Positions 22,332 through 62,688 of a DNA stretch of 64,000 nucleotides are shown here, piece by piece (positions within the stretch are counted from its first letter, which is position 1; every line of letters starts with the position of its first letter). Location: contig NZ_JAFBCZ010000010.1 of the NCBI RefSeq assembly GCF_016907925.1, forward strand, positions 62,001 to 126,000. Direction: 5' to 3'. Below the pieces are notes generated by a model, which did not search any database, was not told the origin of the DNA, and worked only from the letters and a program-made list of their open reading frames with translations. The stretch comes from Herpetosiphon giganteus. GTDB lineage: Bacteria; Chloroflexota; Chloroflexia; Chloroflexales; Herpetosiphonaceae. Both the position numbers and the translations under genes were made by a program.

Positions 22332-22520
22332 GAAGTTAGGCCACGCTTGATGCCAATCTTGCGCACATTTGCGATTGGGGATCGGTTGTTGGGGATCGGG
22401 GATCGGGAACGGCGAAGAGCGCGAAGGGATGAGGGGTCAGGGGTCAACGAAACGGAACCACGAAGAGCGCGAAGAACACGAAGGGAGGTTTTAGCGCAGC
22501 GGCGCAGAGAAAATGAGGTT

Positions 22521-22928
22521 CTGGGCTAGCGAAAAATGCGTGGGTTTGGCGAAGAATCTGGAACTTGAACAAGTAACCGATCCCCGCCCCCTGGCCCCGA
22601 TCCCCAAGGCCGAAACCACGAAGAGCGCAAAGGGCGCGAAGGGGGATTTTAACGCAGCGGCGCAGAGCATATGAGGCTCTGGGCTTTGTGCTTTTTGTAC
22701 TGGTTCATTTCGTTAACGACGTTTTCCACTCATCCGCGGCGAAGGTAACCACAGGACGCATCCTCCCCTCGCCCGCGTTCAGTGGGAGAGGGGCTGGGGG
22801 TGAGGGCATGCTTCTGATTGTCAATCCAATCAACCATTACAGCTCTGGGCTAGCGAAAAATGCGTAGGTTTGGCGAAGAATCTGGAACTTGAACAAGTAA
22901 CCGATCCCCGCCCCCTGGCCCCGATCCC
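22521..22928 (+). repeat. Direct repeat of about 84 bases, two copies
   Basis: Copies at 22521-22606 and 22845-22928 are nearly identical (one G/A change seen), starting CTGGGCTAGCGAAAAATGCG and ending in a GATCCC-rich stretch. They lie on either side of the foldback element. Confidence 0.85.
22696..22841. mobile_element. MITE-like foldback element, partly decayed
   Basis: It starts TGTACTGGTTCATT and ends AATCAACCATTACA, a two-mismatch version of the inverted partner. The core contains CCCCTCGCCCGCGTTCAGTG and the GGGGGTGAGGGCATGC block shared with the better copy at 43338-43507. It is 146 bases long with no coding capacity. Confidence 0.6.
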
Positions 22929-34007: not shown

Positions 34008-34784
34008 ATGCCACTAAGCTCAGCCAATAATCAACCACGTTTGCCAGCTCAACCCAATCGTTTGGGCGCATGGTTGGTCTATCGGGCACTCATTCGGCCA
34101 GCCTTGCGCAAAACCTTCGATCAAGTATTGCTCAACGTTGGGTCAGCCAGTGACATTTTGCGCAGCCGCGAGCCAATTTTGTGCTATGTGACCCATACAA
34201 GCTGGTGGGATGGGCATCTTGCCTTTGAGCTATTTCGCAACGTCTACCCACGCCGCCATTTTTTGATGATGGAAGAAGCGCAGCTCGCCCGTTATTTCTT
34301 CTTCCGCTGGTGTGGTTGCTTCTCGGTTAACCGCCAAGAACCGCGTGAGGCCCTGCGCTCAATACGCTACGCCAGCACCCAGCTTCAACACCACAGCCAC
34401 GCCTTAGTTTGGGTTTTTCCGCAGGGCCAAATTATACCGCCAGATCGCCGTCCGCTCCAATTGTTCCGCGGGGTTGCCGATATTGCTACTCGCACTGGCA
34501 ATCTGTGGTGTTTGCCAGTTGCTCTACGCTATGAATTTAGTGGCGAACAACGCCCAGTTGCCCTAATTCGTTGTGGCGAGCCAACCTGGGTCGATGCTGG
34601 CACAAGCCGCGAGCAACTGCAACCTCAATTAGAGCGCAATTTGACCAGCACCGCCGACCAACTCCGTGACGAGTGGAAGCAGCAAGATCTTGCCAATTTT
34701 CAATCAATTATGCAGGGCACAGCCTCAGTTAATCACCGCTTCGACCAAATTTTGGGGCCAATCGTGCGCTGGTGGCAACGATAA
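34008..34784 (+). CDS. PlsC-like 1-acylglycerol-3-phosphate acyltransferase family protein
   Basis: 258 residues. The acyltransferase motif HTSWWD (H-x4-D) is followed by a VNRQEPREALR region and a VFPQGQIIPP motif that fits block III of the family. No long membrane helix is obvious. The acceptor lipid is unknown. I start at the ATG of MPLSSANN, two codons inside the longest frame, which would use TTG. Confidence 0.87.
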   Translation: MPLSSANNQPRLPAQPNRLGAWLVYRALIRPALRKTFDQVLLNVGSASDILRSREPILCYVTHTSWWDGHLAFELFRNVYPRRHFLMMEEAQLARYFFFRWCGCFSVNRQEPREALRSIRYASTQLQHHSHALVWVFPQGQIIPPDRRPLQLFRGVADIATRTGNLWCLPVALRYEFSGEQRPVALIRCGEPTWVDAGTSREQLQPQLERNLTSTADQLRDEWKQQDLANFQSIMQGTASVNHRFDQILGPIVRWWQR

Positions 34785-34789
34785 GGATT

Positions 34790-35411
34790 GGGGGTCGGTT
34801 GTTGGGGGCTGGGGATCGGGATCAGCGACGAGCAACCACGAAGAACGCGAAGAACGCGAAGGGTTGGGGAGCAGTTGTTAGGGATGGAGGATCGGGATCA
34901 GGAACGAGCAACCGTGAAAAGTGCGAAGTACGCGAAACACACAACATTTGGGGTTAACGAAGCATAACAACAATCCAATACATACATATTTGGGGGTGCA
35001 GGGGGATGAAAACCCCCTGCGTTTCCCTCCGGCGGAGGGACGGAAGGGTGGCGAAAAAAGTGACGGGGTCAGGATTCAGTGATGAGCAACCACGAAGAAC
35101 GCGAAGGCTGAGGATAAACAAATTAATAATTCAGCAAGATCGCTTAACGCAGAGGCGCAGAGGAAAGGTGGTTATTGGCTGTTGGCTATGGGCTAGCAGA
35201 AACCAAATCCTAAAAATCTGTGCCAATCTGTGGCTAAAAAATAATGCTTCGTGTAATTCGTGCAATTCGTGGCTAAAACAGGAATTTGGCTATTGGCTGT
35301 TGGCTATGGACTAGCAGAAACCAAATCCTAAAAATCTGTGCCAATCTGTGGCTAAAAAATAATGCTTCGTGTAATTCGTGCAATTCGTGGCTAAAAACCT
35401 TCGTGGATTCA
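34790..35411. repeat. Spacer island of short-period repeats
   Basis: No gene is supported. Five in-phase heptamers (GGGGGTC, GGTTGTT, GGGGGCT, GGGGATC, GGGATCA) lie at 34790-34824. Nine-base CGAAGAACG units and a CTTAACGCAGAGG-type 20-mer at 35143-35162 are followed by a direct duplication. Small frames across it encode duplicated peptides and are artefacts of the repeat. Confidence 0.85.
35173..35396 (+). repeat. Direct repeat of 106 bases, two copies
   Basis: 35173-35278 and 35291-35396 are identical except for one visible change. Each is itself a mosaic of 7-base TTGGCTA units, ATCTGTGSC units and nine-base ATTCGTGSM units. The pair suggests recent segmental duplication. Confidence 0.9.
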
Positions 35412-43019: not shown

Positions 43020-43024
43020 TAAAA

Positions 43025-43557
43025 GGATGAAGGATGAGGGATGAAGGATGAAGAATGGAAACCACGAAGGGCGCGAAGAACGCGAAGTACATTTTAGCCA
43101 CAGATTGCCCAGATTATGAGGATTGGACTATAGACTATTGATCCACGAAGAGCACAAAGAGCACGAATGATGTTCCCAATAGCCCAAAGCCATTAGCCCA
43201 TAGCCTAATCTCTATTTTAGCCACAGATTCCACAGATTAGCTAGATTAGCTTCCCAAAGCCCAAAGCCATTAGCCCATAGCCTCATCCCTTTTTGCCTTC
43301 TGCCTTTTGATTTTTGACCTCATCCCTATGTTCTATGTGTACTGGTTCATTGCGTTAACGACGATTCCCCCTCACCCCCTAGCCCCCTCTCCCGTCGAAC
43401 AGGCGAGGGGGAACCGCTGAATCAGTGCTCCCCCTCGCCCGCGTTCAGTGGGAGAGGGGTTGGGGGTGAGGGCATGCACCTGGTTGCCAACCTAATGAAC
43501 CAGTACAGCTATACTCTATGTTCTTCTTCATCCTTCATCCCTCATATTTCATCCTTT
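43025..43557. repeat. Spacer island of short-period repeats between lon and nuoN
   Basis: No gene is supported. Four heptamers of GGATGAA type lie at 43025-43052, three nonamers of CACGAAGAG type at 43144-43170, and five heptamers (CCAATAG, CCCAAAG, CCATTAG, CCCATAG, CCTAATC) at 43176-43210. T-rich heptads near 43290-43320 lead to a foldback element, and more TTCATCC heptads lie close to the nuo terminator. Confidence 0.85.
43338..43507. mobile_element. MITE-like foldback element, best-preserved copy
   Basis: 170 bases bounded by perfect 14-base terminal inverted repeats (TGTACTGGTTCATT and AATGAACCAGTACA). Inside, a C-rich arm (CCCTCACCCCC...) pairs with the GGGAGAGGGGTTGGGGGTGA arm. A nested hairpin pairs GGCGAGGGGGA with TCCCCCTCGCC. 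No coding capacity and no clear target-site duplication. Copies in worse states lie at 22696-22841 and near 57478-57626. Confidence 0.75.
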
Positions 43558-43600
43558 AAAAAACGCTTCCCCCACAAACCCGTAGGTTCATGAGGGAAGC
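43558..43600 (-). terminator. Intrinsic terminator of the nuo operon
   Basis: On the minus strand GCTTCCC pairs with GGGAAGC, and then GTTTTTT follows. It lies about 20 bases after the nuoN stop. Confidence 0.8.
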
Positions 43601-50459: not shown

Positions 50460-50806
50460 ATGAGAAAAGGATGAAGGACGAATTATGCGGGAGGAAATTA
50501 AGAACATAGAGCAGAGAACAGAGAACATAGGGCTAAGGATGAATTATGAATTATGCGGGAGGAAAAGAAGAACATAGAGCATAGGATAAGGATGAGGGAT
50601 GAAGGATGAAGGATGAAATACCAAATCAAAGGTCAAAAGTCAAAACTCAAAAGCGCGATCAAAAAAGGCTACTGGCTATCGCGAATGAATTTCATACGAG
50701 AAACCTTCCGATAGCCAAAAGCCTCTAGCCTATCGCCCTTCGTGGCCCTTCGCGCCCTTCGCGGTTTCCGTACTTCGTGGCCCTTCGTGTCCTTCGTGGA
50801 TCAAAA
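50460..50806. repeat. Spacer island of short-period repeats upstream of nuoI
   Basis: The gene-free interval between cobW and nuoI holds AGAACAT/AGAACAG heptads and GGATGAA heptads at 50590-50617. Three YTCAAAA heptads at 50632-50652 are followed by AGCCAAA heptads, and nine-base CCTTCGTGG units end next to the cobW stop. Positions 50316-50459 show nothing I recognise. Confidence 0.85.
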
Positions 50807-52117: not shown

Positions 52118-52160
52118 TCAGCACTGTTGAACGGCAAAATTGCCGAAAGCAAACAAATAA

Positions 52161-52236
52161 TCCCTGATAGCTCAGTTGGTAGAGCAATTGACTGTTAATC
52201 AATGGGTCCTAGGTTCGAGTCCTAGTCAGGGAGCCA
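52161..52236 (+). tRNA. tRNA-Asn (GTT), first copy
   Basis: Complete 76-base cloverleaf with encoded CCA. Acceptor TCCCTGA pairs with TCAGGGA, the anticodon stem is ATTGA/TCAAT with loop CTGTTAA (anticodon GTT), and the T arm is CTAGG/CCTAG around TTCGAGT. Confidence 0.97.
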
Positions 52237-52256
52237 CTTCTTTTGACAATTGATAA

Positions 52257-52332
52257 TCCCTGATAGCTCAGTTGGTAGAGCGGTTGACTGTTAATCAGCA
52301 TGTCCTAGGTTCGAGTCCTAGTCAGGGAGCCA
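52257..52332 (+). tRNA. tRNA-Asn (GTT), second copy
   Basis: 76 bases, 20 bases after the first copy and co-transcribed with it. It differs only in the anticodon stem (GTTGA/TCAGC) and variable loop. The anticodon GTT and the encoded CCA are intact. Confidence 0.97.
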
Positions 52333-52337
52333 CAACC

Positions 52338-62036: not shown

Positions 62037-62124
62037 AGCAAGCTCTATTCATCAAGATTATTACCAAGAGCTATTTTAACGCAGAGTTTATGATGCCAAA
62101 TATAGTTCATAGCAAAAAAGACCA

Positions 62125-62688
62125 TTTAACGCAGAGGCGCAGAGTTTATCATGCCAAATTTGCAGCAAATATGTATCTAGCTCCGTACGATAGCATATTT
62201 CATTCAAGGGGTTTTATATGCATGAAAACTTTCTTAGTGCCCAAATTGTTGATGCTGCGGTCACAGTTCATCGTGAACTTGGCGGACCTGGATTACTAGA
62301 ACGGGTCTATGAAGAAGCATTGATCTACGAATTAACATCAAGAAATTTAATGATTGAACAACAAAAGAGCATTCCAATTATCTATCGCGATAAGCATTTA
62401 AACACATCATTACGCCTTGATCTAATCGTTGAATCATTAATTATCATCGAAATTAAAGCTGTTGCTGAATATAATGCCATTTATTCGGCCCAACTTCTAA
62501 CTTATCTACGTCTTTGTAAATTACGCTTGGGTTTAGTTCTAAATTTTGGTCAATGTTATATGCGTGATGGAATTCATCGAGTAATTAATCAAAAAGCATT
62601 ATCTCAATCATCAAAAAAATCGTAGCAAAGCGTTAATTTCAATTTTTTAATAAACCTAATCTCTCAATCTCTGCGCCTCTGCGTTAAA
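62125..62688. mobile_element. Possible GxxExxY cassette bounded by 20-base inverted repeats
   Basis: TTTAACGCAGAGGCGCAGAG at 62125-62144 faces its exact reverse complement at 62669-62688. Between them lies one complete gene. Near copies of the 20-mer also lie at 22490, 22648 and 35143. A shorter direct repeat with the same CGCAGAG start lies at about 62075-62100. No target duplication or recombinase is seen. Confidence 0.5.
62218..62625 (+). CDS. GxxExxY protein (PD-(D/E)xK nuclease-like)
   Basis: 135 residues. The family motif GxxExxY is present as G25-LL-E28-RV-Y31. LRLDLIVES followed by IIEIKAV gives the D...ExK core of the PD-(D/E)xK nuclease fold. Function is unknown. AAGGGG precedes the ATG. 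It is much more AT-rich than its neighbours, which suggests transfer. It sits inside an inverted-repeat frame. Confidence 0.9.
   Translation: MHENFLSAQIVDAAVTVHRELGGPGLLERVYEEALIYELTSRNLMIEQQKSIPIIYRDKHLNTSLRLDLIVESLIIIEIKAVAEYNAIYSAQLLTYLRLCKLRLGLVLNFGQCYMRDGIHRVINQKALSQSSKKS

Follow-up and report, generated by a model that had tools for sequence, protein, structure and literature searches.

Among the described systems in which a gene is tied to a short dispersed repeat, the closest is that of RAYT (TnpA-REP) and REPINs. Each flavour of repeat has one gene and several flavours can share a genome, as with the three RAYTs that each stand beside their own REPIN type (PMC3116915), and the repeats are found next to the gene as well as in short dispersed intergenic copies. 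A small gene between inverted repeats also characterizes the intervening sequences of 23S rRNA that carry S23p (TIGR02436) genes, and tandem GACAGAT heptamers precede the S23p gene of Coxiella (PMC4990558). The TAACTGA heptamers of Beggiatoaceae and cyanobacteria are short tandem units dispersed in spacers, with no protein assigned (PMC4679880).

The locus described here, a GxxExxY gene of Herpetosiphon giganteus framed by inverted arrays, shares with RAYT/REPIN a repeat flavour specific to the neighbouring gene, the presence of several flavours in one genome, and repeats located both beside the gene and in dispersed intergenic copies. Unlike the RAYT, which is an HUH Y1 tyrosine transposase, the GxxExxY protein is of the PD-(D/E)xK type; its repeat consists of ~7-bp units arrayed at 8–11 bp spacing, whereas a REP is a palindrome, doubled into REPIN hairpins; and the gene-bearing unit is swapped as a block at fixed sites. 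By analogy, the GxxExxY system would work like RAYT/REPIN from unrelated parts, having neither the RAYT protein nor the palindrome. As in insertion sequences, terminal inverted repeats frame the sole gene of the element. The S23p protein is unrelated to GxxExxY, the arrays of which are not strict heptamers and bear no sign of RNA-stem selection; the TAACTGA repeats, being heptamers, resemble the TIGR02436 pairing described below rather than that of GxxExxY. In literature outside subscription journals, no function or repeat association was found for TIGR04256 or PF13366, and searches on GxxExxY, PDDEXK_3 and the repeat strings gave nothing relevant.

The window gene and its terminal arrays

The window is the whole stretch of 64,000 nucleotides that was analysed. 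Its GxxExxY gene (62218–62625, + strand) is an intact open reading frame of 135 residues with a PD-(D/E)xK fold, flanked by frames that we take to be proB and secA. The left terminal array, read toward the gene, occupies positions 62125–62147 (+) and consists of a T-rich head followed by two CGCAGAG units, with a 21-bp core common to the dispersed copies; the right one (62666–62688, −) is its inverse. The earlier note had placed this gene, with its PD-(D/E)xK core, between the 20-mer TTTAACGCAGAGGCGCAGAG and its exact inverse, and both copies are indeed exact, at 62125–62144 (+) and 62669–62688 (−), with the inverted arms reaching 23 nt at 96% identity. The 20-mer has five matches in the window and none in each of 100 dinucleotide shuffles, which rules out the inverted copies as a product of chance. 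A further partial left end (62074–62101, +) comprises TTTTAACGCAGAG (62074–62086) and then TTTATGATGCCAAAT, a repeat of the sequence following the main left array, and forms with the latter a 22-nt direct repeat at 95% identity and a spacing of 58.

Family, active site, and fold of the protein

Judged by profile search, the window protein is a clear full-length member of the TIGR04256 (131.4 bits, cut-off 35, profile positions 3–115 of 116) and PF13366 PDDEXK_3 (125.8 bits, cut-off 22) family. Residues E28 (of GxxExxY), D68, E78, K80, Q92, and Y96 are conserved among 21–62 relatives, and the predicted catalytic set, consisting of E28, D68, E78-x-K80, and Q92/Y96, is intact. The best structural match of the AlphaFold2 model (pLDDT 93) is Cas4 SSO0001 (Foldseek E 8e-4; Z 9.2 over 102 residues, rmsd 4.1). 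Lambda exonuclease, Hjc, and MGME1 come next, depending on the ranking. Because the PD-(D/E)xK fold often gives Z values in this middle range, we read no more from these matches than membership of the superfamily and a residue pattern of the Cas4/exonuclease type. With Cas4, lambda exonuclease, and MGME1 the modelled protein shares both the fold and the D...ExK...QxxxY pattern, whereas it is much smaller than members of the Cas4 branch and has no cysteine at conserved positions to hold an Fe-S cluster. No cas genes were noted beside the GxxExxY gene in the window. With these active-site residues in the right fold, the protein is predicted to be a PD-(D/E)xK nuclease.

The dN/dS ratio of ~0.1 in two Herpetosiphon GxxExxY pairs shows, at the level of codon substitutions, a gene under purifying selection. 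Searches for relatives of the window protein in the PDB by sequence, for a defence role with PADLOC, and for a phage family with PHROG returned no match. Four GxxExxY loci from viral contigs are also framed by arrays, and may be host DNA.

Linkage of gene and arrays across phyla

Eighty GTDB loci were picked by protein similarity alone. Their record titles name Bacteroidota, Chloroflexota, Planctomycetota, Acidobacteriota, Verrucomicrobiota, Pseudomonadota, Cyanobacteriota, Ignavibacteria, Elusimicrobiota, Cloacimonadota, Chlamydiota, Bacillota, and others, as well as the archaeal Methanosarcinales, so that the sample spans more than a dozen phyla. Nearly all of these loci carry inverted arrays of a ~7-bp unit on both sides of the gene, mostly within 100 bp of it. 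A motif-free score, which reverse-complements the right flank, compares it with the left one, and was not chosen after viewing the sequences, is 17.4 at 74 GTDB loci and 8.6 at 222 control placements on the same contigs (p=5e-27), and exceeds the 95% level of the controls at 60 of the 74. Inward-pointing unit pairs reach 12–13 per kb within 100 bp of the gene, compared with ~0.1 per kb beyond 500 bp. The strict two-sided pattern, designed after looking at the sequences, is present at 43 of 72 loci and in 0.25% of 800 control placements; the seven loci that fail it on both sides have off-pattern arrays visible by eye. Clear arrays are missing at a few GxxExxY loci (L049, L287). A single-gap array pattern proved too lax in 30 mixed genomes, with high reversed-read controls in several. 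At L083 (685–1217), a 154-residue frame that is not GxxExxY (MSSKFLIEELFSASVIRSGQLVDLEYTENTG...) lies between matched inverted arrays.

The spacing of the units is 8–11 bp, with a mode of 9. The outermost unit is usually preceded by C and the later ones mostly by A or G; the arrays therefore have polarity, with their heads outward.

The linkage of gene and array is general and strong across phyla. As the earlier note suggested, strings resembling CGCAGAG do lie beside GxxExxY genes of other phyla, the flanking inverted repeats that it proposed to look for occur far above chance, and the contrary expectation, that such genes elsewhere would lack them, is clearly contradicted across the GTDB loci. 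The link is real, and larger than the earlier reader thought.

The closeness of the arrays to the gene on both sides, together with the location of 30 of 43 GxxExxY genes within co-directional gene strings, could also be explained if the arrays were operators or insulators of the gene and the dispersed copies regulatory sites, spread or secondary. This is improbable, since downstream arrays equal upstream ones down to the letters of the spacers (e.g., at L089), a match that one promoter does not need, and since the elements change hands as a block and the genome has hundreds of copies in other spacers. Insertion in the direction of the surrounding gene strings would equally suit a role at the level of RNA, with the two arrays pairing as a transcript stem that is excised by RNase III, leaving the insertion neutral in operons; the rRNA intervening sequences with S23p genes are excised in this manner (PMC4990558). 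Solo arrays are unable to form such a stem, and, where paired arrays differ, changes compatible with G-U pairing are not favoured (155 vs 167, p=0.54), making this explanation highly improbable. Selection for an RNA stem in the arrays is rejected on the same counts, and the lack of RNA-pairing bias argues for recognition as DNA.

Inverted heptamer arrays frame TIGR02436 genes, which encode four-helix-bundle (S23p-like) proteins (L189–L218, 41 relatives). The flank score is above the 95% level of the controls at 23 of 25 of these loci (p=5e-13), and an internal period of 7 is seen in 21 of 22. TIGR02436 with its heptamer arrays is a second pairing of protein and array, parallel to that of GxxExxY, and the heptamer arrays of the window fit it.

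One gene, one array type

The pairing was analysed in 21 genomes with at least two GxxExxY genes each (70 genes). Left arrays score 20.5 against their own right arrays and 8.55 against the arrays of paralogs in the same genome. For 65 of the 70 left arrays the best match is their own right array, compared with 21 expected, and none of 20,000 permutations reaches the total; it is thus not simply that arrays are common in multi-gene genomes. Between genomes, array similarity climbs with protein identity, from ~7 below 40% identity to 15.1 above 80%, as a descriptive trend uncorrected for phylogeny. Tests of array against protein are significant over all 80 loci (0/2000 permutations) and over 22 Chloroflexota relatives (1/2000), and a Mantel test on consensus units of 58 closely related GTDB proteins is not significant (r=0.05, 345/2000 permutations reaching the value).

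Dispersed gene-less copies

The H. giganteus genome (G000; 6.16 Mb in 85 contigs) carries three GxxExxY genes. The 17-mer AACGCAGAGGCGCAGAG occurs in it 262 times at no more than one mismatch, the reversed-pattern control giving none; arrays exceed genes by ~100 to 1. Together with the pairing of own arrays, these copies bear out the earlier proposal of a nuclease-like gene linked to its own dispersed repeat. Thirty aligned copies share a conserved core of ~21 bp, TTTTAACGCAGAGGCGCAGAG, outside which their sequences are unrelated. Most copies are 21-mers that stand singly and are not palindromic; the first ~100 listed include ~11 close pairs, none of them head-to-head. In the window, the near copies of TTTAACGCAGAGGCGCAGAG noted earlier in three other spacer islands are located at 22490–22509 (two mismatches), 22648–22667 (one), and 35143–35162 (one), all on the + strand, with 7- and 9-base arrays beside them as described. 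The array search further identified a CACGAAG-family array at 22459–22483 (+) and a CACGAATT-family array at 35248–35271 (−), of the families that frame the paralogs L001 and L002 of the same genome, respectively. Dispersed arrays of all three families occur across the window and across 0.7 Mb drawn from four Herpetosiphon genomes; the reversed-read controls gave 0. No decayed GxxExxY remnants were detected by HMM at the sister window sites or at 30 dispersed-copy loci.

The spacers of the window near 22400–22900, 34780–35400, 43020–43560, and 50500–50800, as well as L004–L033, contain several array families in a recurring mosaic order, in which the heads of two different families often abut, such as CTTCGTGGATCA beside TTTTTAACGCAGAGG. 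Beyond the window, an insert of ~300 bp made of repeats of the CCCCTCTCCC...GGGAGAGGGG type (G000:C10:158920–159230) is absent from three sister genomes, so that a further dispersed family has a clean filled/empty pair. The window also contains, at 52157–52333, tandem repeats of period 96 of a tRNA-like sequence that includes CTGTTAATC and is probably Asn.

Gene presence and repeat number in relatives

The window-type gene is absent from five sister genomes, yet these keep the 17-mer (266 copies in G004, 260 in G005, and 93–126 in G001–G003). The window site of G001 retains TTTTAACGCAGAGGCGC at its left and CTCTGCGTTAAAA at its right, around an interval that lacks the gene. In the simplest reading, the gene is ancestral in the genus and was lost in most lines, the repeats outlasting it; alternatively, the window-type gene may have re-entered. 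Across 41 relatives, gene-bearing genomes are richer in general-pattern arrays (Mann–Whitney p=4e-4; 0.008 without the genus), with exceptions both ways. The objection that the distribution of the 20-mer might be unrelated to the gene thus holds in part, for the five gene-less sister genomes, but not for the array counts of the wider set. Gene and repeat do not correspond one to one.

Two of the exceptions, G036 and G028, have many arrays and no TIGR04256 gene, as might be expected if the arrays belonged to another, transposase-driven system of which GxxExxY was merely a frequent cargo. Such a relationship is scarcely credible, given that matched inverted array pairs of gene size (250–1400 bp apart) bracket almost only GxxExxY (38 of 43 in the GTDB loci, four of five in 0.7 Mb of Herpetosiphon), that array similarity rises with protein identity, and that the elements examined showed no gene besides GxxExxY.

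In G056 (Blastocatellia), dispersed hairpins of ~130 bp (L321–L340) contain two arrays that are placed head to head and closely resemble those of the GxxExxY gene L253, and several of these hairpins have outer ends like GTGTCCTGATTT / AAATCAGGACACTA; by analogy, these hairpins may be regarded as a REPIN-like form.

Block exchange and empty sites

Comparison of 60-bp windows at the suf site of G002 and G003 reveals an element mostly 40–70% identical within flanks that are mostly 82–100% identical, with the breaks in identity falling at the arrays, whereas between G002 and G004 the element is ~98% identical and the more distant flanks are ~92% identical. At the nuo site, gene and arrays occur in a CACGAATT version (G000, G004) and a CACAGATT version (G001, G002, G003, G005), which occupy one place in otherwise nearly identical DNA and cut across the grouping seen elsewhere, where G000, G004, and G005 cluster. 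On these alignments, gene and arrays are swapped as one block between Herpetosiphon genomes. Clean empty sites, the search for which had been proposed earlier, were found in a betaproteobacterial family at trpE/trpG. The element is present in L291 and L307, and in their close relatives L292–L294, L298, L299, L303, and L306 the gap from stop to start is ~11–15 bp and array-free. No target-site duplication was recognised at trpE/trpG, where the spacer is too short and diverged to show one firmly. Comparison of ~93%-identical genomes gave no clean solo-array insertion, their spacer indels resembling slippage between repeats.

In L291 the GxxExxY frame can begin at an ATGA that overlaps the trpE stop and then reads through the left array; in both L291 and L307 part of the predicted N-terminus is array sequence read in frame, which in L291 gives HHRDTETQRE. 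Annotators should be warned of such cases, and N-terminal peptides of this kind in databases may mark elements. Operon junctions are reused across lineages, with L094, L112, L129, and L137 at trpE/trpG and L050 and L097 apparently at carA/carB. The carA/carB cases, in different phyla and with different arrays, suggest repeated independent insertion.

The block replacement at the suf and nuo sites would fit gap repair between arrays and, like the excess of arrays over genes and the presence of both inverted heads at the gene-less window site of G001, could be explained by homing, in which arrays pre-exist, the nuclease cuts gene-less array sites, and repair copies the cassette in, while the arrays spread otherwise. 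We consider homing unlikely, since the empty trpE/trpG sites are array-free, so that the arrays come with the gene; since the two nuo versions differ in their arrays, which is not simply expected at a shared site; and since every paralog has its own array pair.

Proposed mechanism

The gene and its two inverted arrays probably constitute one mobile unit, a nuclease-like gene with array ends, to which the gene-less solo arrays are related. This proposal draws on the linkage of gene and arrays, the match between the two arrays of each gene, the block swap, the clean empty sites, the dispersed copies with the same core, and purifying selection; binding and cutting of the arrays by the protein, and the spread of solo arrays by this route, we infer. 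The element would consist of a small Cas4/lambda-exonuclease-like gene with array ends, their T-rich heads pointing outward. Each GxxExxY lineage would own an array sequence, array and protein traveling together, and solo arrays would be gene-less relatives of the element ends, as REPs/REPINs are of RAYT transposases. The protein most likely recognises the repeated ~7-bp units at both ends and cuts at or near them; host repair would then copy the element, or the array alone, into intergenic DNA, and patches copied in the course of this repair may give rise to solo arrays. The spread by cut-and-repair that the earlier note suggested may thus take place.

More tentatively, and with real doubt, we can speculate that minimal Cas4-like nuclease units in more than a dozen phyla, of bacteria as well as archaea, spread both themselves and intergenic array patches of a few tens of bases, the nuclease having no known transposase partner, and that TIGR02436 units do likewise with heptamers.

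Implications

Strings such as CCACAGAGACACAGAG, as well as CACGAAG arrays, are dispersed in the genomes of many phyla, and no assigned cause was found for either. The GxxExxY family looks like a key to such widespread, unexplained bacterial repeats. With an array tied to a specific nuclease gene, there is a protein to test, a sequence that it would target, and, in sister genomes with and without the gene, a set of natural controls. If the proposal is true, repeats would here be spread independently of RAYT/REP and by an unrelated enzyme, and GxxExxY and TIGR02436 units together would explain a large part of the short repeats in many environmental genomes. If the nuclease were shown to recognise the arrays, the system would merit the name of a new class.
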